Assembly: GCF_036895565.1 (NCBI RefSeq)
Contig: NZ_CP145904.1
Location: forward strand, 2,232,001 to 2,296,000
From: Flavobacterium sp. KS-LB2
Lineage (GTDB): Bacteria; Bacteroidota; Bacteroidia; Flavobacteriales; Flavobacteriaceae
Reading direction: 5' to 3'
Length of the DNA: 64,000 nucleotides
The stretch's first letter is position 1. Each line of letters starts with the position of its first letter. The notes under the pieces were generated by a model that saw nothing but the letters and a program-made list of their open reading frames with translations, was not told the origin of the DNA and did no database searches. Position numbers and translations under genes: made by a program. This document shows positions 7,028 through 18,139 of this stretch, piece after piece.

Positions 7028-7071
7028 ATGATAATTATCATTTTAATAGTTGATGAGTCGTTTTACTTTTG
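7028..7071 (+). promoter_or_regulatory. hemN promoter with Crp/Fnr-type operator
   Basis: ATGATAATTATCAT at 7028-7041 is a perfect 14-base palindrome. It is followed by a consensus -7 box TACTTTTG at 7064-7071. The palindrome centre is 29.5 bases upstream of the first base of the -7 box, identical to the spacing at the ccoS and ccoI promoters. No TTG-type -33 element lies at the usual distance, so the promoter probably needs the activator. The start site is predicted near 7076, 18 bases before the hemN ATG. Confidence 0.75.
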
Positions 7072-7093
7072 AGGAACATTAAATGAGTCTGCT

Positions 7094-8458
7094 ATGCAAA
7101 ATTCCTTAATTCAAAAATACAATGTCCCTGGTCCTAGATACACGAGTTATCCTACGGTTCCGTATTGGGATGAAACTGATTTTTCAGATGCCATTTGGGC
7201 CCAAACGCTGAGGAAATCATTTATAGAAAGTAATTCAGCAGAAGGTATCAGTTTGTATATCCATTTGCCTTTTTGCGAAAGCTTGTGCACTTTTTGTGGC
7301 TGCAACAAACGTATTACCAAAAATCACGATGTTGAACATCCATACATAGAATCAGTTTTGAAAGAATGGACCTTGTATTGTAAGATTCTTGGTAAAAAAC
7401 CAACTATAAAAGAGATTCATTTAGGCGGTGGAACTCCCACATTTTTTTCTATCAAAAATTTAGAGGATTTAATAAATGGTATTCTTTCTCATGCTAATAA
7501 AGCCAAAGACCATGAGTTTAGTTTTGAAGGCCATCCTAATAACACGACGCATGCCCATTTGCAAAAGCTGTACGATTTAGGTTTTCGAAGAGTTAGCTTT
7601 GGCGTTCAGGATTATTCAGAAAAAGTTCAAAAAGCAATTCATCGCCTACAACCTTTTCATAATGTAGCAAAAGTTACGTTTTGGGCACGAGAAATAGGTT
7701 ATACTTCTATTGGACATGATATTATTTTTGGATTGCCCTTTCAGGAATTAGAGGATGTTATTGATACGATTGAAAAAACAAAATCATTGCAACCTGACCG
7801 ATTGGCTTTTTACAGTTATGCTCACGTTCCTTGGATCAAAGGAAACGGGCAACGTGGTTTTAATGATGAAGATATTCCAAAAGATGATAAAAAGAGAATA
7901 CTCTATGAAACTGGTAAGAAACTCTTGTATGAGAATGGCTATCATGAAATAGGAATGGATCATTTTGCTTTGGAAAAAGATAGTCTATATGAAGCTTTTC
8001 AAAACGGCAATTTACACCGTAACTTTATGGGATATAGCGCTTCTAAAACACAACTAATGATTGGATTGGGAGTTTCGTCCATTAGTGACAGTTGGTATAG
8101 TTTTGCACAGAATGTAAAAAACTTGGAGGATTATTATCAAATGTTAGAATGGGATAAATTACCCATTTTTAGAGGGCATTTACTCACTGCTGAAGACCTC
8201 ATCATCCGAAAACACATCCTGAATTTAATGTGCCAATTTGAAACTTCTTGGAACAATAATGAAAATTATTTTAACGAAATTCCAGATGTACTTCTTCAAT
8301 TGAAAGAAATGGAAAATGATGGATTACTGATAATTAAAAACAACAGCATTGCCGTTACCGAAAAGGGGAAACCTTATGTACGAAATATTTGCATGGCATT
8401 TGATTTGCGTCTAAAGCGAAAAGCTCCAAAAACCGAATTGTTTTCGATGACAATCTAA
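7094..8458 (+). CDS. hemN: Oxygen-independent coproporphyrinogen III dehydrogenase
   Basis: A radical SAM enzyme that decarboxylates coproporphyrinogen III to protoporphyrinogen IX without oxygen, in the cytoplasm. It is 454 residues long, the normal HemN length. The cluster motif is CESLCTFCGC (Cys61, Cys65, Cys68, with the family's extra Cys70). N-terminal PGPRYTSYPTVPYW and the glycine-rich HLGGGTPTFF SAM-binding segment are typical HemN features that set it apart from the shorter HemW. Its promoter carries the same operator as the cbb3 oxidase genes, which fits haem supply under low oxygen. It converges on the cco cluster with a shared terminator. Confidence 0.96.
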   Translation: MQNSLIQKYNVPGPRYTSYPTVPYWDETDFSDAIWAQTLRKSFIESNSAEGISLYIHLPFCESLCTFCGCNKRITKNHDVEHPYIESVLKEWTLYCKILGKKPTIKEIHLGGGTPTFFSIKNLEDLINGILSHANKAKDHEFSFEGHPNNTTHAHLQKLYDLGFRRVSFGVQDYSEKVQKAIHRLQPFHNVAKVTFWAREIGYTSIGHDIIFGLPFQELEDVIDTIEKTKSLQPDRLAFYSYAHVPWIKGNGQRGFNDEDIPKDDKKRILYETGKKLLYENGYHEIGMDHFALEKDSLYEAFQNGNLHRNFMGYSASKTQLMIGLGVSSISDSWYSFAQNVKNLEDYYQMLEWDKLPIFRGHLLTAEDLIIRKHILNLMCQFETSWNNNENYFNEIPDVLLQLKEMENDGLLIIKNNSIAVTEKGKPYVRNICMAFDLRLKRKAPKTELFSMTI

Positions 8459-8480
8459 TATTTCATCTTTATAAAACACA

Positions 8481-8508
8481 AAAAAGCACGCAAATTCGCG
8501 TGTTTTTT
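8481..8508. terminator. Bidirectional terminator between hemN and the cco cluster
   Basis: Stem AAAAAGCACGC / GCGTGTTTTTT with a 6-base loop. A and T runs on both sides let it work on either strand. It lies 22 bases after hemN and 20 bases after the minus-strand SafE-family gene. Confidence 0.85.
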
Positions 8509-8528
8509 TGTGGGAAACTATTAGCTAA

Positions 8529-9230
8529 TTAATGACAGTTCGGATTGGCTTGAATAAACAAACTCATAGTAGCTGGTGAAATATATGGAATTCCTAATCC
8601 CAATCCTCTTAAAATAAACAAACAACCAATACCTACGGCGACATAAGGAATTGCTTTTTGGATTTGGTTTCGAATAGGAATTGTCAAAAATGAGTTGATG
8701 TATACAACACTACTCATCAAGGGAACGGTTCCTAATCCGAATAAAATCATATACAAAACACCTAAACTTTCACTTTGCATGGCAATGGCGCCAAATAAGG
8801 CGACATAAACCATTCCGCAAGGCAAAAAGCCATTCAGTAAACCAATTGTAAATAGGGATTTGTAGCTTTTGTTTCTAAACTGACTTCCTAAAGCCGTTTT
8901 AATTCTGGAGATTACTTTAAAAACTGGTTTTGAAAAATTGTATTTGGCAAAAAGTTTGTCTGGAATCACCACTACAATAATCATGGCTATACCAATAAAT
9001 AAGGATAAATTCTGTTGCAAACCAGCCATAAAAAAACCTTTACCCAGCAGTCCAAAAACAAAACCGATGGTCGCATACGCCGTTAATCTCCCTAAATGAT
9101 ACGTAATTATTTGAGTTGCTTTTTTAGACTGATTCGTCCTATCTACAGGCAACATCATAGCAATAGGGCCACACATTCCGATGCAGTGAAAACTACTTAT
9201 TAAACCGAAAATAAAGGCAGTGTAAAGCAT
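8529..9230 (-). CDS. TauE/SafE-family membrane protein of the cbb3 cluster
   Basis: A 233-residue polytopic membrane protein with about six helices. It begins with a helix ending HCIGMCGPIAMML and has a second half with LLNGFLPCGMVYVAL. These two paired Cys-Pro/Gly motifs mark the UreH/DsbD-like transmembrane group often labelled sulfite exporter TauE/SafE. Position last in the ccoG-ccoH cluster suggests a role in oxidase maturation, such as thiol or copper handling, and not sulfite export. That role is inference from context. The C-terminus ends NPNCH, a possible metal ligand pair. Confidence 0.85.
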   Translation of the reverse strand: MLYTAFIFGLISSFHCIGMCGPIAMMLPVDRTNQSKKATQIITYHLGRLTAYATIGFVFGLLGKGFFMAGLQQNLSLFIGIAMIIVVVIPDKLFAKYNFSKPVFKVISRIKTALGSQFRNKSYKSLFTIGLLNGFLPCGMVYVALFGAIAMQSESLGVLYMILFGLGTVPLMSSVVYINSFLTIPIRNQIQKAIPYVAVGIGCLFILRGLGLGIPYISPATMSLFIQANPNCH

Positions 9231-9302
9231 TTTTTTAGTCTAATGTCATAAAATTAAAAGTCTTAAAGTCATTTATTAACTTCAAAGCCTCTTGTTTTAA
9301 GA

Positions 9303-9755
9303 CTAATTGAAATAAATCGTTTCTTTGGACAAATAGGATTTCCCTTCATATTGCCATTCCATATTAATGTCCCATCGACCGCCTGCCAAACTTTTTTTAG
9401 GTATGAGCAAAGTAGTAGCATCAGAAAGTGAAATTGGAATTTCAAAATCTAATTTTTTGTTAGACGGTCTGTAAAGGGACACTTTACCTTTAATGTTTTT
9501 TGGAACAAATGTTTTTGGAAAAACTATTTCAATTCCGCTTGAAACAATATTAATTACTGGCTTTTGGGCCAAGTTTGTTGCATTTTGAATTCGAGTCATT
9601 TCATCTCCAAAATGAGCATCATGTTTGTAATATTCTTCTACGACTAACTCATTGTCATATTTTGAATCAGATTGTACCGTAAAAACAAAATACAAAATGA
9701 AGGTCATAAACAAACCAAAAGCGATTACGATTCCTGTTCCCCAGCTAAATTTCAT
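9303..9755 (-). CDS. ccoH: FixH/CcoH-family cbb3 oxidase assembly protein
   Basis: 150 residues with one N-terminal membrane helix (WGTGIVIAFGLFMTFILYF) and a periplasmic beta-rich domain ending in GRWDINMEWQYEGKSYLSKE. The conserved YYKHDAHFGDEM segment right after the helix corresponds to the YY...Y...D region of FixH. FixH/CcoH associates with the cbb3 oxidase or its CcoI copper pump during assembly. It sits between ccoG and the SafE-family gene, with 44- and 72-base gaps, consistent with one transcript from the ccoS promoter. Confidence 0.88.
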   Translation of the reverse strand: MKFSWGTGIVIAFGLFMTFILYFVFTVQSDSKYDNELVVEEYYKHDAHFGDEMTRIQNATNLAQKPVINIVSSGIEIVFPKTFVPKNIKGKVSLYRPSNKKLDFEIPISLSDATTLLIPKKSLAGGRWDINMEWQYEGKSYLSKETIYFN

Positions 9756-9799
9756 GATATTTAATTTATATTTTTTTGTGAATCTCGAACTAGAGCCTT

Positions 9800-11218
9800 T
9801 TAATCAAAACTGCGCGGGCTTAAAAAATTAGTGGTCGCCGTTTCAATTTTTTCATTTCCATTATAGACCTCAATTTTTAATTTTGTTTTGTCGCTGTCCA
9901 ATACGTTTTGATTGATTTCGACAAATAAAGTTCCTCCATTCATCCCCTGTTTGGGCACTTTTAAATCCTGATTTCCAACTACTTTTAAAGTCCCCTTTAT
10001 ACCCACTAATTTAAAATGAATCGCATCAAAATCAGTATTGGTCTTATTGATGATTTTAAAAGTATACACATTGCTAATATTTTCACCTTTATGCTGAAAC
10101 AATTGTCCCGGCAATCTCAAAATACTGGCTTCCACATCGGAACGCAAAAACAACAATCCGATTAAAATTCCTGTCAAAATAAATAATACAGCTGAATAGC
10201 CTTTCATTCTGGGCGTGAACTTGAACTTTTCTTTTTTCTCTATTTCATCTTCTGAAGCGTATCGGATAAGCCCTTTTGGTAAACCAACACTATCCATAAT
10301 CGTATCACATTCATCAATGCAAGCGGTGCAATTAATACATTCCATTTGTGTCCCGTTACGGATGTCAATTCCGGTTGGGCAAACATTTACGCATTGCTTA
10401 CAATCAATACAATCGCCTTTTCCGGTAGTCGCTCTGTCTTCTTGCTTGTTGAATTTAGCTCTACCTACTTCTTTTTCACCACGAACAAAATCATAGGCTA
10501 CATTTATCGATTTGTCGTCTAATAAAACACCTTGCAATCTTCCGTAGGGACAGGCTATAATACAAACTTGTTCTCTAAACCATGCAAAAATAAAATAGAA
10601 AACTCCTGTAAAAATCAATAATGAGATCAAAGTGCTAATGTGATTTTCTGGTCCATCTTCAATCATTAAAAACAACTTATCGCTACTGATCAGATACGCT
10701 AGAAAGACATTGGCAATAAAAAAAGAAATGATTAAGAAAATCGACCATTTGAGGCCTTTTTTTCTAATTTTCTCCGCATTCCATTCTTGCTTTTCTAAAC
10801 GAATTTGAGCACCACGATCGCCTTCTATCCAATATTCTATTCGGCGGAAAACCATTTCTAAAAAGATAGTCTGCGGACAAATCCATCCGCAAAATATACG
10901 TCCAAAAATAACTGTAAAAAGGATGACGAAAACAACGCCAATAATCATAAAAACAACAAATAGATAAAAATCCTGTGGCCAAAAAGGAAATCCGAAAATA
11001 TTAAATCGTCGTTCCAATATATTGAACATCATAAACTGATTGCCATTAATCTTTAAAAAGGGATTTGCAACAAGAACAATCAGTAAAAAGTAGCTCACCC
11101 ATTTCCTATAGTCATAGAACTTTCCCGAAGGTTTTTTAGGGAAAATAAATTTTCTATTTCCCGCTTCGTCAATAGTTCCAATGGTATCTCTAAATGCTTC
11201 GTCCGGTAATTTTGACAT
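9800..11218 (-). CDS. ccoG: Cytochrome c oxidase accessory protein CcoG
   Basis: A 472-residue membrane iron-sulfur protein. The N-terminal half has several helices with RIFCGWICPQTIF and CIIACPYGRLQG. The cytoplasmic ferredoxin-like part has two 4Fe-4S motifs, CIDCKQCVNVCP and CINCTACIDECD. After one more helix near residue 340, a C-terminal immunoglobulin-like domain follows (IG-FAP/FixG type). CcoG is linked to reduction of copper for insertion into cbb3 oxidase. It follows ccoP with a 76-base gap on the same strand. Confidence 0.95.
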   Translation of the reverse strand: MSKLPDEAFRDTIGTIDEAGNRKFIFPKKPSGKFYDYRKWVSYFLLIVLVANPFLKINGNQFMMFNILERRFNIFGFPFWPQDFYLFVVFMIIGVVFVILFTVIFGRIFCGWICPQTIFLEMVFRRIEYWIEGDRGAQIRLEKQEWNAEKIRKKGLKWSIFLIISFFIANVFLAYLISSDKLFLMIEDGPENHISTLISLLIFTGVFYFIFAWFREQVCIIACPYGRLQGVLLDDKSINVAYDFVRGEKEVGRAKFNKQEDRATTGKGDCIDCKQCVNVCPTGIDIRNGTQMECINCTACIDECDTIMDSVGLPKGLIRYASEDEIEKKEKFKFTPRMKGYSAVLFILTGILIGLLFLRSDVEASILRLPGQLFQHKGENISNVYTFKIINKTNTDFDAIHFKLVGIKGTLKVVGNQDLKVPKQGMNGGTLFVEINQNVLDSDKTKLKIEVYNGNEKIETATTNFLSPRSFD

Positions 11219-11294
11219 TTTTTTTTATTTAAAACACAGGTTTGAAATAATTATTAAAATTCTTAAGCTAAATAAAAACGTGTGTTTGTACTTA

Positions 11295-12194
11295 TTATTT
11301 AACAGCAACTGTGGCGTTTTCCTCTACCCAAACTTCCCCTTCTGGAGCTTTAGCATCAGGAGGATTACTTCCTTGTAAGGATAGAATGTAGCTGGCAACT
11401 TTTTGCATTTCTTTAGGTTTCAAGGTACCTTTCCATGAAATCATCCCTTTCCCGTCACGTCCTCCGTTTACCAGCGTATGAAATACATTTTTTATTCCGC
11501 CTCCTAAGATCCATTTTTCATCTGTTAAATTTGGTCCAATCTGTCCTCCAGCATCAGCTCTGTGGCAAGCAGCACAATTTGTGGTAAATATTTCTTTTCC
11601 AGCTGCTAAATCAGCAGGATCTGTTAACAAGGTCACCGTTTTTTCATCCATTAAATCTGGTGCAGTTTTCATATATTCTGCAATATCTATTTTGGCTTGA
11701 GCCACTTCTTTTTTAAGTTCCATTTCTTGATTATCAGCTCCTAAAACTTCGTATCGAACCATATAAACAACCCCAAAAACAATACACGCATAGAATAAAT
11801 ATACCCACCAAGGCGGCAAATTGTTATCTAATTCTTTGATGCCATCGTAATCGTGTTCTAATAATAACTGATTTTCATTTGCTAAAGGCTCTGTTTTAGT
11901 CAATTTTTCCATCAGCTTTTTGTACCATTCGCTATCCTTGAAACTCAACTCATTTGCTTCATTTAATTTGTTTTTTTGTTCCTCGGTCAATAAATGATAG
12001 GTAATATTGTCAACTGCCTTAATCGTAATTTCTATTGCTATCAAAAGGAAAAGGAACACGAATAAGAATACAGAAACCATTGGAAATTTTATAAACGCAG
12101 GTCGATCTCCTGAATCTATGAAGTATTCCATTGCCATCATTACAGCAAAGAAAATAACAGGTACTCTAACGTATACTGGAATTAATTTTTTCAT
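11295..12194 (-). CDS. ccoP: cbb3-type cytochrome c oxidase subunit III
   Basis: 299 residues. Two N-terminal helices are followed by a region with a further helix (PPWWVYLFYACIVFGVVYMV), the N-terminal CcoP domain, then a single cytochrome c domain with the haem motif CAACH and downstream Met ligands (KGMISWKG). Proteobacterial CcoP is usually dihaem; only one CxxCH is present here, which I understand to be common in Bacteroidota. It passes electrons from soluble or membrane cytochrome c to the ccoNO product. The gene starts 27 bases after ccoQ ends. Confidence 0.94.
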   Translation of the reverse strand: MKKLIPVYVRVPVIFFAVMMAMEYFIDSGDRPAFIKFPMVSVFLFVFLFLLIAIEITIKAVDNITYHLLTEEQKNKLNEANELSFKDSEWYKKLMEKLTKTEPLANENQLLLEHDYDGIKELDNNLPPWWVYLFYACIVFGVVYMVRYEVLGADNQEMELKKEVAQAKIDIAEYMKTAPDLMDEKTVTLLTDPADLAAGKEIFTTNCAACHRADAGGQIGPNLTDEKWILGGGIKNVFHTLVNGGRDGKGMISWKGTLKPKEMQKVASYILSLQGSNPPDAKAPEGEVWVEENATVAVK

Positions 12195-12221
12195 TTTCTA
12201 AATTTTAAAAAATTATACTAT

Positions 12222-12392
12222 TTAATTGTCCCTCAATGGAATTTGACTCAATTCATTAATCCTTTCTTTCTTATAGGAGAACACCCATAGACCGAGTCCT
12301 ACAAAAAAGACGAAAAAAATTAATAATGATAGGATGGGATATATTGCCACACCGTCTATCGTTTCCATATTGTGTTTTATTTGTTCGAACAT
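12222..12392 (-). CDS. ccoQ: cbb3-type oxidase small subunit CcoQ
   Basis: A 56-residue frame read on the minus strand between ccoNO and ccoP, starting MFEQIKHNMETIDGVAIYP. It has one membrane helix (LLIFFVFFVGLGLWVF) and a short charged tail ending SQIPLRDN. Size, topology and position match CcoQ/FixQ, which stabilises the oxidase. It starts 5 bases after the ccoNO stop, so translation is probably coupled. It is easily missed because it is so short. Confidence 0.88.
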   Translation of the reverse strand: MFEQIKHNMETIDGVAIYPILSLLIFFVFFVGLGLWVFSYKKERINELSQIPLRDN

Positions 12393-12397
12393 AATTT

Positions 12398-14587
12398 TTA
12401 TTTTTTAGCGACATCTTTTACTTTAATATCCGTTCCCAATCTTTGCATGTAAGCAATCAAAGCAACTATTTCTCTTTCGTTCATTGGAACAAATTTCTCT
12501 CCTCTAGCTTCAGCTTTCTTCTTGCTTTCGTCATAACTTTTTACAAAATCAGGATCGTTTTTCAAGCTCTCTTCAATAGCGACAGCTTGTTTTCTTAAAT
12601 CGTCTAAACCGCTTGCAATCTGAGCTTCTGTATAAGGAACACCCAATGTGACCATAACTTGCATTTTCTTTTGCGTTAAAGAAACGTCCATTGGTTTATT
12701 GTCAAACAGCCATTTGTATCCTGGCATAATAGAACCTGCTGATATACTTTGAGGATTCCAAAAGTGGTTAAAATGCCAATTGTCATTATACTTCGCTCCT
12801 ACTCTTAATAAATCCGGACCGGTACGTTTTGATCCCCAAAGAAATGGATGATCGTATACGAATTCCCCAGCTTTAGATTGTGGTCCGTAACGTTCCACTT
12901 CACTACGGAAAGGACGAACTGACTGTGAGTGACATCCTACGCAACCTTCACGAATGTATAAATCACGACCTTCTAGCTCTAATGGAGAATACGGTTTAAC
13001 ACTGGCAATTGTCGGAATATTCGATTTAACCATAATTGTAGGAACAATTTGGATAACACCTCCAATTAAAATAGCAACAGTTGCCAAAATGGTTAATTGA
13101 ATCGGTTTTCTTTCTAACCAAGGGTGAAATTTTTCTCCTTTTACTCTTCCTGCACTAATTTTTATTAACTCAGGAGCCTCCGCTAATTCGTCTTCAATTT
13201 TAGAACCTAATCGAACCGTTTGAATTACATTATACACTAAGGTGAACATTCCAATTAAATAAAGTGTTCCACCAATAGCTCTCATCCAATACATTGGCAT
13301 AATTTGAGTTACTGTTTCCAGAAAGTTACCATACGTTAAAGTTCCGTCCGGATTAAATTGTTTCCACATAGATGCTTGTAAAAAACCAGCAACATACATT
13401 GGAATGGTATATAAAATAATCCCTAGTGTTCCAATCCAAAAGTGAAAATTAGCCAACTTAACTGAGTACAAATTGCTTTTAGTCATTCTAGGAACCAACC
13501 AATAAATCATACCAAAAGCCATAAATCCATTCCAAGCTAATGCACCTACGTGAACGTGAGCTATAATCCAATCCGTATAATGCGCGATAGCATTTACATT
13601 CTTCAAGGATAACATTGGACCTTCAAAAGTGGCCATTCCGTAACCTGTAATTGCAACTACAAAGAATTTCAAGACTGGCTCTACACGTACTTTATCCCAA
13701 ACTCCTCTTAACGTTAATAGTCCGTTTATCATTCCTCCCCAAGATGGCGCAATCAACATAATCGAGAAAGCTACTCCTAAATTTTGCGCCCAGTTAGGCA
13801 AAGCCGAATATAATAAATGGTGAGGTCCAGCCCAGATATAAATGAAAATCAACGACCAAAAGTGAACAATTGACAATCGGTACGAATATACCGGACGATT
13901 CGCCGCTTTTGGAATAAAATAATACATCAATCCCAAGAAAGGTGTTGTCAAGAAAAACGCAACCGCATTATGACCGTACCACCACTGCACTAAAGCATCT
14001 TGAACTCCTGCGTAAACGGAATAACTTTTCATTCCAGAAACCGGTAATGCTAAACTATTGAATATATGTAAAACTGCCACAGTTACAAATGTTGCCAAGT
14101 AAAACCAAATTGCAACATACAAATGGCGCTCTCTACGTTTTAAAATGGTTCCAATCATGTTGATACCAAAGACAACCCAAATTAATGCAATTGCAATATC
14201 TATTGGCCACTCTAACTCAGCATACTCTTTTGAAGAACTATATCCTAATGGCAATGATATGGCTGCCGCAACGATGATTAATTGCCACCCCCAGAAATTA
14301 AGATTACTTAAAAAATCACTGAACATCCTGGCTTTTAACAGTCGCTGCAAAGAGTAATAAATACCCGCAAACATGGCATTTCCTACGAAAGCAAAAATAA
14401 CCGCATTGGTATGTAATGGTCTCAATCGACCGTAACTCAACCACGATATGCCATCAGTAAGATTTGGAAAAAGGAACATAAAGGCCAATGTAAGACCTAC
14501 TAACATTCCTACTACTCCAAAGACAATGGTAGCGTAAATGAATTTTTTTACAATTTTGTTGTCATAATAAAACTGCTGCATTTCCAT
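12398..14587 (-). CDS. ccoNO: Fused cbb3-type cytochrome c oxidase subunits I and II
   Basis: A 729-residue fusion. Residues ~1-480 are the haem-copper catalytic subunit CcoN with 12 or more helices and conserved histidines, for example RPLHTNAVIF, WWYGHNAVAFFL and IIAHVHVGALAWNG. Residues ~500-729 are CcoO, with one membrane helix and a monohaem cytochrome c motif CVGCH followed by SQSVRPFRSE. The enzyme reduces oxygen to water with high affinity and pumps protons. Fusion of N and O is usual in Bacteroidota. The gene is second in the cco operon, 46 bases after ccoS. Confidence 0.97.
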   Translation of the reverse strand: MEMQQFYYDNKIVKKFIYATIVFGVVGMLVGLTLAFMFLFPNLTDGISWLSYGRLRPLHTNAVIFAFVGNAMFAGIYYSLQRLLKARMFSDFLSNLNFWGWQLIIVAAAISLPLGYSSSKEYAELEWPIDIAIALIWVVFGINMIGTILKRRERHLYVAIWFYLATFVTVAVLHIFNSLALPVSGMKSYSVYAGVQDALVQWWYGHNAVAFFLTTPFLGLMYYFIPKAANRPVYSYRLSIVHFWSLIFIYIWAGPHHLLYSALPNWAQNLGVAFSIMLIAPSWGGMINGLLTLRGVWDKVRVEPVLKFFVVAITGYGMATFEGPMLSLKNVNAIAHYTDWIIAHVHVGALAWNGFMAFGMIYWLVPRMTKSNLYSVKLANFHFWIGTLGIILYTIPMYVAGFLQASMWKQFNPDGTLTYGNFLETVTQIMPMYWMRAIGGTLYLIGMFTLVYNVIQTVRLGSKIEDELAEAPELIKISAGRVKGEKFHPWLERKPIQLTILATVAILIGGVIQIVPTIMVKSNIPTIASVKPYSPLELEGRDLYIREGCVGCHSQSVRPFRSEVERYGPQSKAGEFVYDHPFLWGSKRTGPDLLRVGAKYNDNWHFNHFWNPQSISAGSIMPGYKWLFDNKPMDVSLTQKKMQVMVTLGVPYTEAQIASGLDDLRKQAVAIEESLKNDPDFVKSYDESKKKAEARGEKFVPMNEREIVALIAYMQRLGTDIKVKDVAKK

Positions 14588-14633
14588 ATATATAATTATT
14601 TTTAAAGTTGTTTATTATTTGATTTATTGAAAG

Positions 14634-14825
14634 CTATAGAATACTAGTATCCTTGGATTTCGTTTTTTTAGCTTTCGACTGAATTAGCTCATCGTCAAAA
14701 AGCATTCTGACTGATGGCGTGTAATCATCATCATATTGTCCCGTTTTTACCGCTCGTATAAAAGCAATAAAGAAACCAATAGCAACGATGATACTGATGG
14801 TGATTAATAAATAGATGACACTCAT
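14634..14825 (-). CDS. ccoS: cbb3-type oxidase assembly protein CcoS
   Basis: 63 residues: one N-terminal membrane helix (VIYLLITISIIVAIGFFIAF) and the conserved segment GQYDDDYTPSVRMLFDD, followed by a lysine-rich tail. CcoS is needed for cofactor insertion into cbb3 oxidase. It is the first gene of the oxidase operon. Its start codon lies 13 bases after the predicted transcription start, given the operator and -7 box upstream. Confidence 0.93.
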   Translation of the reverse strand: MSVIYLLITISIIVAIGFFIAFIRAVKTGQYDDDYTPSVRMLFDDELIQSKAKKTKSKDTSIL

Positions 14826-14842
14826 ACCTTAATTTGTGTTAA

Positions 14843-14887
14843 CAAAGTTACTTTGACGTTTTGGAGTAAAATATGACATTTGTCATA
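14843..14887 (-). promoter_or_regulatory. cco operon promoter with Crp/Fnr-type operator
   Basis: TATGACATTTGTCATA (14872-14887) is an inverted repeat with perfect 7-base arms around a TT spacer. On the minus strand it is followed by a consensus -7 box TAACTTTG (14850 down to 14843). The palindrome centre is 29.5 bases from the first base of the box, exactly as at hemN and ccoI. No TTG is present at the usual -33 distance. This promoter should drive ccoS-ccoNO-ccoQ-ccoP and probably ccoG, ccoH and the SafE-family gene. Confidence 0.8.
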
Positions 14888-14942
14888 CTTGTTAATCTAT
14901 GTTAAATTTATGTGAAAGCACAATTCAAAAACTTTTATAATC

Positions 14943-17360
14943 CTATCTTTTGTTTGCATAATAACTACTCATCACCGTTACAAAACTTACAATCGTTATA
15001 GTACTTAAAGGCATTATAATTGCTGCTACCAATGGTAATAAATTCCCCGTAATGGCAAATGATAATCCCACCACATTGTATAATAAAGACAGTCCAAAAC
15101 TCATTTTAATGGTCGTAATAGCGTTCTTAGATAATTTCAAGAAATAGTTTAATTTTTGAAATTCACTAGCATCTAAAATAGCATCACAGGCCGGTGAAAA
15201 AACATTAACATTCTCAGAAATAGATATTCCAACATTGCTTTGCGCCAAAGCCCCGGCATCATTCAGTCCATCGCCTACCATCATTACATTTTTACCTTCA
15301 TCCTGCAATTTTTTTATAAATTCTAATTTTTGCTCTGGTTTCTGGTTGAAAATTAATTCCGTGCCTTTCGGCAAAAGCTGTTCAAGAGTTTCTCGTTCGC
15401 CTTCGTTGTCACCTGATAAAACTTTGATCTGATAGTTAGCACTTAAGTTCCTAAAAAGCGCTTCTAAACCTTCTCTGTACTGATTATTAAAAATGAATTT
15501 CCCGAAATAAACATTATTTATCTTGATGTGAACTGAAGTTTGCTGGACGTTCTTTTCTTCAATTTTTCCAACAAAATCGGCAGAACCAATTTGGATTTGG
15601 TGACCAAAAATCTGTGCTTGAATTCCTTTTCCGGTGATTTCTTCAAAATGATCCACTTTCAACTTTTTAGTATCATTTCCTGATTTACTTTGCAATATTG
15701 GAATAGGTAAATAGTCATATAACATGCGGCTCAACGGATGATTGGAGGCGCGTAGCACATTTTTTATAAGCAATAAATTCTCATCAGATAGAACACTTCC
15801 TTCATAAGAAATATTCGATTTTATGTTAGTTGTAATCGTTCCTGTTTTATCAAAAACTATCGTATCTACTTTCGCTAATTGTTCAATCACTAAAGCATTC
15901 TTGAGATAGAATTTTTGTTTTCCTACTATTCGCAATACATTCCCAAAAGTAAAAGGCGCAGTTAATGCCAAAGCACAAGGACAAGCCACAATAAGTACTG
16001 CTGTAAAGACATTGAAAGCAGTGTTGGCATCAATAAAAATCCAATAGCCAAATCCCGCAAAAGCAATCAGTAATAAAATAGGCGTAAAATAGCGACTAAT
16101 GCTATCGGTAATCGTTTTGTGTTTTTGCGCTACATTTTTTTGGAACACATCATTGCTCCATAATTGTGTCAAGTAACTTTGGGAAACAGAATGTAGCACT
16201 TCCATTTCGATTACTTTCCCTATTTGTTTTCCTCCGGCAAATACTTTATCACCAGATTGTTTTGTGATAGGAATTGCTTCTCCAGTAACAAAACTATAAT
16301 CGATTTCCGCTTTTTCCGAAATTAGAATCCCATCAACAGGAATGAGTTCTTGGTTTCTAATAAGTAGTCTGTCGCCTTTTTCTACTTCGTAAATCGCCAC
16401 ACTTTCTTCTGATAAATCCGAATTTATTTTGGTTATCGCTATTGGAAAATACGATTTAAAATCCCTCTCGAAACTCAAAAAACTATACGTTTTGATTTGG
16501 AACATCTTACCCAAAAGCATAAAGAAAATCAATCCCGTTAAGCTATCAAAAAAACCAGAACCGTAATCCATGACAATATCAAACGTACTTCGAATAAACA
16601 TTACCACAATTCCTAAAGCGATAGGAATATCGATATTGAGCATTTTAGTTTTGATACTTTTGTACGCCGAAACATAATAGCCACTTGCCGAATAAAAGAA
16701 ACTCGGTAATGCTAATGCAAAAATCAACCAACGGAAAAAACCACGATATTGATCCAGCCAATATTCTTTTACCTCAAAATATTCAGGAAAAGAAAGCAAC
16801 ATGATGTTTCCAAAGCAAAAGAAAGCAACACCTAATTTATAGGTTAAACTTCTATCGACAGTGGTAGTTCCCGTTTCATAGTTTTCTAAACTAATGTAGG
16901 GTTCGTATCCAATTGAGTTTAATAAAAAAACGATTGTTTTAACAGAAACTTGTTCGGGATTAAAAGTAATTCGGACTTTCTTCTCTGGGAAATTAACCTG
17001 CGAAGTACTTATTCCTTTTTGAAGACGCTGTAGATTTTCCAAAATCCAAATACACGAACTACAATGAATATGAGGAATGTTAAGTGAAATAATTGCAGTT
17101 GAATTTTCTTGGAATTCCAACAATTTGGATACAATACTTTCATTGTCTAAAAAATCATATTTACCATTATTATCTTGCGGAGTTGCTCCAGGGGATTTTT
17201 CAAAATCATAATAACATGTCAAATCATTCAGACTAAAAATTTCATAGACGGTTTTACAACCGTTACAACAGAAATTTTTAGTATCAAAAATAATTTCGTC
17301 TGCTTTTATAATATCTAAACCACAATGGAAACAGTTTTGTGTGTCCATAACTTTGCTCAT
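14943..17360 (-). CDS. ccoI: Copper-transporting P-type ATPase of the cbb3 system
   Basis: An 805-residue P1B ATPase. It has an N-terminal cysteine-rich domain (CFHCGLDI, FCCNGCKTVYEI), a heavy-metal-associated domain with HCSSC, a transmembrane CPC copper-binding motif (VACPCAL), the phosphorylation site DKTGTIT, the SNHPLS nucleotide motif and GDGLNDAGAL. It delivers copper for the oxidase. The first ATG (17360) lies only ~7 bases after the predicted transcription start; the next ATG, at 17348 (MDTQNCFHC), would give a ~19-base leader like that of hemN and may be the true start. It is transcribed divergently from the crp/fnr gene. Confidence 0.95.
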   Translation of the reverse strand: MSKVMDTQNCFHCGLDIIKADEIIFDTKNFCCNGCKTVYEIFSLNDLTCYYDFEKSPGATPQDNNGKYDFLDNESIVSKLLEFQENSTAIISLNIPHIHCSSCIWILENLQRLQKGISTSQVNFPEKKVRITFNPEQVSVKTIVFLLNSIGYEPYISLENYETGTTTVDRSLTYKLGVAFFCFGNIMLLSFPEYFEVKEYWLDQYRGFFRWLIFALALPSFFYSASGYYVSAYKSIKTKMLNIDIPIALGIVVMFIRSTFDIVMDYGSGFFDSLTGLIFFMLLGKMFQIKTYSFLSFERDFKSYFPIAITKINSDLSEESVAIYEVEKGDRLLIRNQELIPVDGILISEKAEIDYSFVTGEAIPITKQSGDKVFAGGKQIGKVIEMEVLHSVSQSYLTQLWSNDVFQKNVAQKHKTITDSISRYFTPILLLIAFAGFGYWIFIDANTAFNVFTAVLIVACPCALALTAPFTFGNVLRIVGKQKFYLKNALVIEQLAKVDTIVFDKTGTITTNIKSNISYEGSVLSDENLLLIKNVLRASNHPLSRMLYDYLPIPILQSKSGNDTKKLKVDHFEEITGKGIQAQIFGHQIQIGSADFVGKIEEKNVQQTSVHIKINNVYFGKFIFNNQYREGLEALFRNLSANYQIKVLSGDNEGERETLEQLLPKGTELIFNQKPEQKLEFIKKLQDEGKNVMMVGDGLNDAGALAQSNVGISISENVNVFSPACDAILDASEFQKLNYFLKLSKNAITTIKMSFGLSLLYNVVGLSFAITGNLLPLVAAIIMPLSTITIVSFVTVMSSYYANKR

Positions 17361-17371
17361 TTTACCTAGAA

Positions 17372-17433
17372 CAAAGAACTTAAACGATTGTTAATTAAAA
17401 TATGACATTTATCATATTAAAGAGTTAGTTTTG
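17372..17433. promoter_or_regulatory. Divergent ccoI and crp/fnr promoters sharing one operator
   Basis: The operator TATGACATTTATCATA (17401-17416) lies between two divergent -7 boxes. Leftward, towards ccoI, the box is GTTCTTTG (17379 down to 17372, imperfect), 29.5 bases from the operator centre. Rightward, towards the regulator gene, it is TAGTTTTG (17426-17433, consensus), only 17.5 bases from the centre. The leftward geometry fits activation. The rightward one puts the operator over the -33 region and may allow autoregulation. Confidence 0.7.
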
Positions 17434-17458: not shown

Positions 17459-18139
17459 ATGAGCAAATGCGAACAATGTATCGTCAGAGAATTTAGCTCT
17501 TTAAAAGCACTTACTAAAGACGAATTACTAAAACTTTCAGACTGTAAAACATCCCATACCATTAAAAAAGGAGCGGTTATATTTGAAGAGGGAGAAAATG
17601 TAAATGGTATTTATTGCATAAAAGATGGCATTTGTAAACTGACTAAACTCAGTGCGAATGGTAAAGATCATATTGTAAAATTAGTTACAAAAGGAGAATT
17701 ATTAGGGCAACGCTCTATGATTAGTGATGAACCCGTAAACCTAAGCGCTATAGCTCTCGAAGACATGCAGGTTTGTTTTATTCCAAAGTCAGAGGTGATG
17801 GGATATTTTGACAAAAACAATCAGTTTTCCATGAATGTCATGAAAACGATTTGCGGAGACTTAAAAGAAGCAGATGAACTTATGGTCAAATTAGCCCAAA
17901 AAACAGTCAAAGAAAGATTAGCAGAAACACTTCTTTATTTGCATCATACCTTTGGTGAAAATGAAGATAAATCCTTAAAAATACAACTTTCCAGAGATGA
18001 ATTGGCCAGTATGATTGGTACAGCCACTGAAAGTTGCATTCGTTTATTATCTGATTTCAATAAATTAGGATTGATTGAGTTAACTGGTAAAAAAATAGTT
18101 TTAAAAGATCTTACTCAACTTAAAAAACTAGCAGATTAA
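17459..18139 (+). CDS. Crp/Fnr-family transcriptional regulator
   Basis: 226 residues: an N-terminal cyclic-nucleotide-binding-like beta barrel, dimerisation helix and C-terminal winged helix-turn-helix (LSRDELASMIGTATESCIRLL). Glu191 and Arg195 of the recognition helix match the Glu and Arg that in Crp and FNR contact the TGA half site. The N-terminus has a CxxC pair (Cys4, Cys7), and Cys106 lies at the spacing of E. coli FNR Cys122 relative to that pair. The third FNR cysteine position is a serine, though Cys29 is nearby. An oxygen-sensing cluster is therefore possible but unproven. It probably controls hemN, cco and ccoI through the shared palindromes. Confidence 0.92.
   Translation: MSKCEQCIVREFSSLKALTKDELLKLSDCKTSHTIKKGAVIFEEGENVNGIYCIKDGICKLTKLSANGKDHIVKLVTKGELLGQRSMISDEPVNLSAIALEDMQVCFIPKSEVMGYFDKNNQFSMNVMKTICGDLKEADELMVKLAQKTVKERLAETLLYLHHTFGENEDKSLKIQLSRDELASMIGTATESCIRLLSDFNKLGLIELTGKKIVLKDLTQLKKLAD

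Follow-up and report, generated by a model that had tools for sequence, protein, structure and literature searches.

Introduction

In Proteobacteria, Crp/Fnr-family regulators such as FixK, FnrN and Anr regulate the cbb3-type oxidase (ccoNOQP), its assembly genes, and hemN. Here we examine a locus with the same kinds of genes in a 64,000-nucleotide stretch of Flavobacterium sp. KS-LB2 (hereafter the window; NCBI RefSeq assembly GCF_036895565.1, contig NZ_CP145904.1, positions 2,232,001 to 2,296,000, forward strand), which carries hemN, a ccoS-ccoNOQPGH operon, ccoI, and a gene for a 226-amino-acid Crp/Fnr protein. The original prediction for this window, made from its letters alone, was a Crp/Fnr mini-regulon of three palindromic operators at one fixed distance from their promoters. 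Comparative genomics upholds the hemN, ccoS, and ccoI promoters as members; the regulon is larger than these three. As an explanation of the whole, we consider it highly probable that an FNR-type sensor would activate hemN, the ccoS operon, and ccoI from a class II position, with feedback on its own gene.

Several described regulators bear on this comparison. The cluster ligands of Escherichia coli FNR are reported as Cys20, Cys23, Cys29, and Cys122 (PMC4601167), and 19 of 23 FNR-activated promoters are reported to have a site within 4 nucleotides of -41.5 (PMC3688515). Ligand sets can differ; the cluster of Bacillus subtilis Fnr is described as held by three C-terminal cysteines and Asp141 (PMC3520743). 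Among Bacteroidota, the Porphyromonas gingivalis Crp/Fnr regulators HcpR and PgRsp are reported to be haem-based. HcpR and DNR proteins are described as having no FNR cysteine motif, and HcpR2 is characterized by a genomic link to hcp and the motif GTAACnnnnGTTAC (PMC1274295). Within the same order, MalR-like Crp/Fnr homologues in Flavobacteriales and Saprospiraceae bins are predicted to sense carbon through the Bacteroides MalR motif rather than to govern an oxygen regulon (PMC8510549); by that description they would differ from the present protein. In Flavobacterium psychrophilum, start-site mapping places the sigma-A box TAnnTTTG at -12 to -5, a position given where the box is compared with SM5; oxygen limitation is reported to raise cbb3 oxidase and haem enzymes there (PMC9723704). 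No earlier description of the regulon or regulator reported here was found in the full-text literature, as judged by titles and the beginnings of abstracts, a body of text that most subscription papers fall outside.

Results

Three operators share one spacing in the window

The three palindromes are present where they had been predicted, each as a 14-mer inside the interval originally given, and at hemN, ccoS, and ccoI alike the window sequence places the palindrome centre 29.5 bases from the first base of the -7 box (all spacings below are measured in this way). The hemN operator (ATGATAATTATCAT, 7028..7041, no strand assigned) consists of a core 12-mer, TGATAATTATCA (7029-7040), with flanking A/T; it stands ahead of the box TACTTTTG (7064-7071, + strand) and of hemN itself (7094..8458, + strand), encoding an oxygen-independent coproporphyrinogen III oxidase (TIGR00538, 428 bits against a cut-off of 325). 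The ccoS operator (ATGACATTTGTCAT, 14873..14886, no strand assigned; core TGACATTTGTCA, 14874-14885, flanked likewise) serves the box TAACTTTG (14850-14843, - strand) of ccoS (14634..14825, - strand; TIGR00847), the first gene of the cco operon. The third operator (ATGACATTTATCAT, 17402..17415, no strand assigned; core TGACATTTATCA, 17403-17414, with the same flanks) lies between ccoI (14943..17360, - strand) and the regulator gene (17459..18139, + strand) and faces two promoters: that of ccoI, with the box GTTCTTTG (17379-17372, - strand) at 29.5, and that of the regulator gene, with the box TAGTTTTG (17426-17433, + strand) at 17.5, which puts the operator near -29.5. TAnnTTTG-like boxes had been expected at all three genes; hemN and ccoS have them, and the ccoI box keeps TTTG without TA. 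From box to ATG, ccoI has 19 bases both in the window and in six of eight loci inspected, and its leader would be about 7 bases.

The layout is conserved in close relatives and across the genus

The locus was compared in the best 80 of 392 relatives, named either Flavobacterium or only Flavobacteriaceae, Flavobacteriales, Flavobacteria, or Bacteroidetes. Genes were placed by tblastn and up to 300 bases upstream were examined; loci with a cut-off gene or upstream region were dropped, which gave 71 loci for ccoS (of 71 hits), 58 for ccoI (of 79 hits), and 80 for the regulator gene. At ccoS, the palindrome and TAnnTTTG stand at exactly 29.5 in 71 of 71 loci, whose 43-mers comprise 69 distinct sequences in 13 spacer groups of under 60% identity. 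At ccoI, the palindrome occurs in 57 of 58 loci (56 perfect, one with a single mismatch) and TTTG follows at 29.5 in 48 of these 57; four loci have TAnnTTTG at 28.5. Among the 48, T never occurs at -12, where 35 loci have G, 7 have C, and 6 have A; at -11, 42 have A and 6 have T. The regulator gene is preceded by a perfect palindrome in 79 of 80 loci and by one with a mismatch in the other. There TAnnTTTG lies at 16.5 (37 occurrences), 17.5 (22), or 15.5 (9), with few elsewhere, and at 29.5 in none of the 80. In control regions upstream of seven other genes the palindrome was found in 6 of 414, 274 of them inside the cco operon; for mazG, pdf, and a permease the count was 1 of 140. Since hemN fell outside the fetched flank in all but one of the 80 loci, it was tested by a genus scan.

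That scan, which the original prediction had proposed as a check, searched 41 Flavobacterium genomes for TGAYAWWTRTCA N8-38 TAnnTTTG, with the reversed pattern as control. It returned 196 palindrome/box pairs against 13 in all for the reversed pattern, and 114 of the 196 stand at 29.5. A further 23 lie at 28.5, 6 at 30.5, 28 between 14.5 and 17.5, 11 at 20.5-21.5, and 6 in total from 31.5 to 44.5. At class I positions (N39-69), the same 41 genomes yielded 27 matches, compared with 22 when the pattern was reversed, and these were judged to show no clear peak. The commonest distance among these long-range pairs was 55.5 (6 of 27; G022, G027, G032, G008, and G030, with three near-copies in G022 and G027), possibly an upstream class I-like position on evidence too thin to judge.

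Annotation of 93 of the 114 sites, with gene clusters named from one or two scanned members each, indicates a regulon well beyond the window. The hemN gene has TAnnTTTG at 29.5 at 28 sites in 28 genomes, the present one included, and ccoS accounts for 21 of the 93 sites (18 recognized by the following ccoNO frame, 3 by position beside ccoNO). Eight sites, in eight genomes, precede a family of 42-47-amino-acid membrane proteins, which may act as small partners in the low-oxygen respiratory chain. The remainder precede genes for universal stress proteins (6), metallo-beta-lactamase/rhodanese proteins (5), cytochrome c or copper-oxidase/cytochrome c proteins (3), a 78-amino-acid YdcH-like protein (3), PAS proteins (2), MFS transporters (2), and a 445-446-amino-acid protein (2), together with twelve single cases and one site without a convincing gene. 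Of the 23 sites at 28.5, six were annotated (L225-L230), and all six lie ahead of FeoB, confirmed by Pfam in L225, with room for feoA.

Some further members were noted in passing. The membrane protein family was seen at L145, L154, L155, L168, L176, L187, and L210, and in our own genome outside the window (L006:1567-1698), where it has no Pfam match. Two genes of the same genome, judged by eye from their first residues, may be weaker targets: one resembling the Pyr_redox protein of L181, with a palindrome and the box TTCATTTG at 29.5 (L013), and one resembling the universal stress protein of L140, with a palindrome and TAAATTTA at 28.5 (L007). In genome G002 (L222), a second Crp/Fnr paralogue has a 29.5-spaced site of its own, which suggests a regulatory cascade.

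Spacing, rather than the palindrome, departs from chance

Palindromes by themselves are not rare; it is the spacing that stands out. With at most one mismatch, the originally proposed motif matches 13 times in the window (four matches are exact, all at the three sites), and 7 of 100 shuffles of the window attain 13; genome-wide, there are 13 strict TGAYAWWTRTCA sites against 7 for the reversed pattern. The window contains seven TGAYNNNNRTCA palindromes, or 14 orientations, for which TAnnTTTG at one offset is expected 0.012 times and observed twice, and TTTG is expected 0.15 times and observed three times; these expectations use window-wide frequencies, uncorrected for the choice of offset, and TAnnTTTG is about 2.5 times commoner in sampled upstream regions. 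The other 11 of the 14 orientations have no TTTG at 29.5. Over the 31 spacings scanned, this genome has 12 palindrome/box pairs (8 for the reversed control); 29.5 occurs three times, at hemN, ccoS, and the gene for a 43-amino-acid membrane protein outside the window, and any other spacing at most once. A chance agreement of AT-rich palindromes and boxes would find some comfort in the abundance of palindromes, several of which sit inside reading frames in this genome without a box at 29.5. It is so improbable that it can be set aside, given the ccoS loci, identical in layout across divergent spacers, and the sharp peak over 41 genomes; the comparison already refutes it. The earlier view that agreement in sequence and spacing is hard to attribute to chance is thereby strengthened.

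The operator is predicted to occupy a class II position

Taken with the -12 to -5 position of the box in F. psychrophilum, a spacing of 29.5 places the operator centre at -41.5, so that the predicted class II position is sustained by the comparative spacing together with that borrowed box position, against which the operator is fixed. The upstream core element is weak or absent: a logo of the 93 sites contains no TTG at -33, is T-rich after the operator, and has G at only 2-10% from -33 to -28. The promoter is in this respect unlike that of E. coli FNR, being a Bacteroidota TAnnTTTG box without a -33 TTG. In E. coli, FNR binds 29.5 bases from the start of its -10 box. Both operators share the core TGAY....RTCA, which was part of our search pattern; the FNR operator is TTGATnnnnATCAA, and the outer base here is A (83% of the 93 sites) rather than T (1%).

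The regulator resembles FNR with an altered cysteine set

The regulator belongs to the Crp/Fnr superfamily by its cNMP-type sensor domain (PF00027, 71.5 bits) and Crp-type helix-turn-helix domain (PF13545, 63 bits), both above cut-off, and over residues 4-225 it aligns to FNR chains such as 9qlt and 5cvr at E of about 1e-18. That all eight of its cysteines are unchanged in 81 close relatives is hardly informative. A list of homologues, the best 120 of 6887, was likewise discarded for judging cysteine conservation, every one of them being about 90% identical or more. A phylum-wide alignment of 53 proteins, comprising this one and 52 homologues with fetched loci (E up to 1e-30, favouring similar ones), retains Cys4, Cys7, Cys53, and Cys106 together in 45, down to 32% identity, where they are four of only 17 invariant positions. 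The other eight include seven with none of the four and one with two, and the cysteine positions 29, 59, 132, and 193 vary.

In a HMMER alignment, Cys4, Cys7, and Cys106 fall on FNR Cys20, Cys23, and Cys122, and the conserved Cys53, on the Ala of FNR YAIRSG, takes the place of an equivalent to Cys29. The protein therefore has three of the four E. coli FNR ligand positions and is FNR-like without being canonical. In its presumed rearrangement of the ligand set it is like Bacillus Fnr, from which it differs in that its cysteines are N-terminal and in the cNMP-type domain. It is not assignable to HcpR: no hcp lies among the scanned neighbours, and the operator motif differs from GTAACnnnnGTTAC. 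All of the 45 proteins have Glu191 and Arg195 in the recognition helix, and all of 30 proteins compared have Ile194; we take Ile194 to be the position of FNR Ser212, and the outer operator base A in place of T may be linked to this residue.

Regulator, oxidase, hemN, and sites occur together

All 35 Flavobacterium genomes with a close regulator copy have at least one site at 29.5 (mean 3.2), against 0, 0, 0, 0, 1, and 1 in the six that lack one (Mann-Whitney p 8e-5, with relatedness not corrected); background spacings are alike with and without the regulator, at 0.6 and 0.5 per genome. One genome scored as lacking it (G021, 86% complete) has a good match only over a 59-residue fragment. Of the 35, 34 contain ccoNO and the other is a genome 60% complete; hemN was scored in some of the 35. 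Both ccoNO and hemN are absent from all six genomes without the regulator. Regulator, oxidase, and hemN thus behave as one module, gained or lost together. Because the regulator-less genomes are also without hemN and ccoNO, the loss of sites is partly a loss of targets, and motif absence was dropped as an independent test.

Outside the genus the layout is partly retained

Palindrome/box pairs were scanned in 44 of 79 genomes outside the genus. In the 20 with a four-cysteine regulator, 22 of 47 pairs stand at 29.5, in 12 genomes; in the 17 without a regulator hit, the count is 3 of 11, all in one genome (G112); and in the seven genomes of one family (f5), it is 0 of 29. The regulator homologues of that family are without the four cysteines (six of seven checked), and four of six aligned proteins have a cysteine at position 105, one residue ahead of position 106, so that cysteine has not vanished from this region altogether. 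As a separate observation, 13 of the 29 pairs in this family (G045, G059, G071, G080, G089, G097, G105) have TTTAGAA or TCTAAATAA between palindrome and box, at longer spacing.

Among 32 further loci, ccoI is present in 18, 11 of which have the palindrome and TTTG at 29.5 and one more at 28.5. Six of the 11 belong to other families, with regulator identity of 43-46% and nAnnTTTG kept at 29.5 (CACTTTTG twice, CACCTTTG, GACCTTTG, GAGGTTTG, CATTTTTG). The ccoS gene is present in 11, with TAnnTTTG at 29.5 in four and at 30.5 in one. The most distant loci (L305, L306, L308-L313, L315-L317) have at most weak cco hits in the stretch, and their layout could not be judged.

Two genomes separate the layout from the regulator. 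G112, from a genus of the same family, has no regulator homologue at E up to 1e-30 and carries palindromes at 29.5 before both ccoI and ccoS. Upstream of its ccoI (L324:6487-8780) are a PAS-HisKA-HATPase kinase gene and an overlapping REC-cNMP-HTH_Crp gene, as well as a DUF3298-like gene. In G079, hemN and ccoS both have their site at 29.5, and the fetched stretches contained no recognizable regulator. The two cases support conservation of the layout; they also suggest that Crp/Fnr proteins other than this one may work through it, and layout alone does not name the regulator.

Other genes of the locus

Gene names in the window derive from NCBIfam and Pfam scans, those of ccoP and ccoI partly from position. 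On the - strand, ccoS is followed by ccoNO, a fusion of cbb3 oxidase subunits I and II (12398..14587; NF011053, 1332 bits), ccoQ (FixQ; 12222..12392; PF05545), ccoP (11295..12194; TIGR00782, 112 bits, below the cut-off of 180, and named by its place in the cluster), ccoG (9800..11218; TIGR02745), ccoH (FixH; 9303..9755; PF05751), and, last in the cluster, a DsbD_2 transmembrane protein gene (8529..9230; PF13386). The product of ccoI, a heavy-metal (copper) P-type ATPase, matches TIGR01525 and TIGR01511, both below cut-off, and its gene is clustered with the cco genes.

Discussion

The observed sequences, fixed spacing, conservation, target set, and cysteine pattern lead us to infer direct binding, activation, an oxygen response, cluster ligands, and autorepression as follows. 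The 226-amino-acid protein would be an FNR-type oxygen sensor that dimerizes at low oxygen, probably around a [4Fe-4S] cluster with Cys4, Cys7, Cys53, and Cys106 as its ligands. The dimer is predicted to bind ATGAYAWWTRTCAT and, when centred at -41.5, to switch on hemN, the ccoS-ccoNOQPGH operon, and ccoI by class II activation, substituting for the missing -33 element. Because its box is without T at -12, ccoI should be weak and activator-dependent. At the shared operator, the same dimer would cover about -36 to -23 of the regulator's own promoter and probably repress it, and the spacing of 15.5-17.5 suggests such negative feedback. The proposed system would thus resemble E. coli FNR in its Crp/Fnr fold, in three cysteine positions, and in the operator position, and the FixK, FnrN, and Anr systems in its targets; from the latter it differs in phylum, sigma factor box, and sensor cysteines. 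To the original prediction it adds a wider regulon, a third operator that likely works in two directions, a ccoI box that avoids T at -12, and an altered set of sensor cysteines.

Several findings weigh against this explanation. The Fnr model PRK11161 (NCBIfam) scores the protein at 89 bits, below its cut-off of 228, and the equivalent of FNR Cys29 is Ser13, a position that is never Cys in the 30 proteins compared. At ccoI, 9 of 57 loci have no TTTG at 29.5, and one further locus of the 58 has no palindrome. Missing sites in regulator-less genomes offer no independent test, hemN and ccoNO having been lost as well. Outside the genus the layout is kept only in part (29.5 at 11 of 18 ccoI and 4 of 11 ccoS loci), and G112 and G079 keep it without a close copy of this regulator. 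The position taken to imply autorepression is not universal: in two Flavobacterium loci (L239, L240) some 150 bases separate the palindrome from the start codon of the regulator gene, and loci of other families either show a regulator-side distance of 6.5, 18.5, or 37.5 or have no visible palindrome.

Three other explanations were weighed. The sites could be real class II operators bound mainly by another Crp/Fnr protein or by a REC-Crp/Fnr response regulator, with the neighbouring gene as one of several inputs; the PAS histidine kinase and REC-Crp/Fnr fusion of G112, beside its 29.5 palindromes, and the sites of G079 speak for this, as do two genomes without a close regulator copy (G037, G039) that have one 29.5 site each. 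We regard it as very unlikely, given that a search of this genome at E up to 1e-10 gives a single further hit, of 21% identity, that 79 of 80 loci have the palindrome ahead of the regulator gene, and that the G112 and G079 cores (TGACCAATATCA, TGATTAATATCA, TGATTTATATCA, TGATTAAGATCA) deviate from TGAYAWWTRTCA. The protein might instead sense haem or nitric oxide rather than oxygen, as for the P. gingivalis relatives: its best solved relative by sequence is the Crp/Fnr protein 2gau, and PgRsp is reported to bind haem. The 2gau match, however, spans residues 32-225 only, the targets fit low oxygen, and a CxxC with two more cysteines is found in 45 of 53 proteins and is absent as a set in seven of the other eight, so that this alternative, too, appears unlikely.

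The third palindrome could also have another role at the regulator gene. It may activate that gene in a positive loop, or have no role there at all, since its presence in 79 of 80 loci would be expected for ccoI alone and the palindromes of L239 and L240 lie far from the regulator's box. Set against this are a distance to the regulator's box that varies and is never 29.5, whereas the activating sites are fixed, and an operator that covers the -33 region of the regulator promoter; we find the alternative doubtful, though it carries some weight.

Autorepressing, oxygen-sensing class II activation is accordingly the account that we retain for Flavobacterium. We lean somewhat toward a broader reading as well, in which a Bacteroidota branch of FNR would hold its cluster on an N-terminal CxxC together with Cys53 and Cys106 of the sensor domain and would act at 29.5 on TAnnTTTG, the sensor having been swapped in some relatives for a PAS kinase and REC-Crp/Fnr pair while operators and spacing were kept. 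Under that reading, the distance from operator to TAnnTTTG is the same as that of E. coli FNR to its -10 box, and class II geometry would therefore not depend on the sequence of the -10/-7 box.

Activator control in Bacteroidota is poorly mapped, and promoters in this phylum are unlike the textbook form. The 29.5-base rule can be used to predict class II targets within Flavobacterium, and partly beyond it. The regulon described here would tie microaerobic respiration and the supply of haem and copper to one regulator, and its cysteine pattern suggests, in a form open to testing, that FNR-like proteins have altered the way in which they bind their oxygen-sensing cluster.

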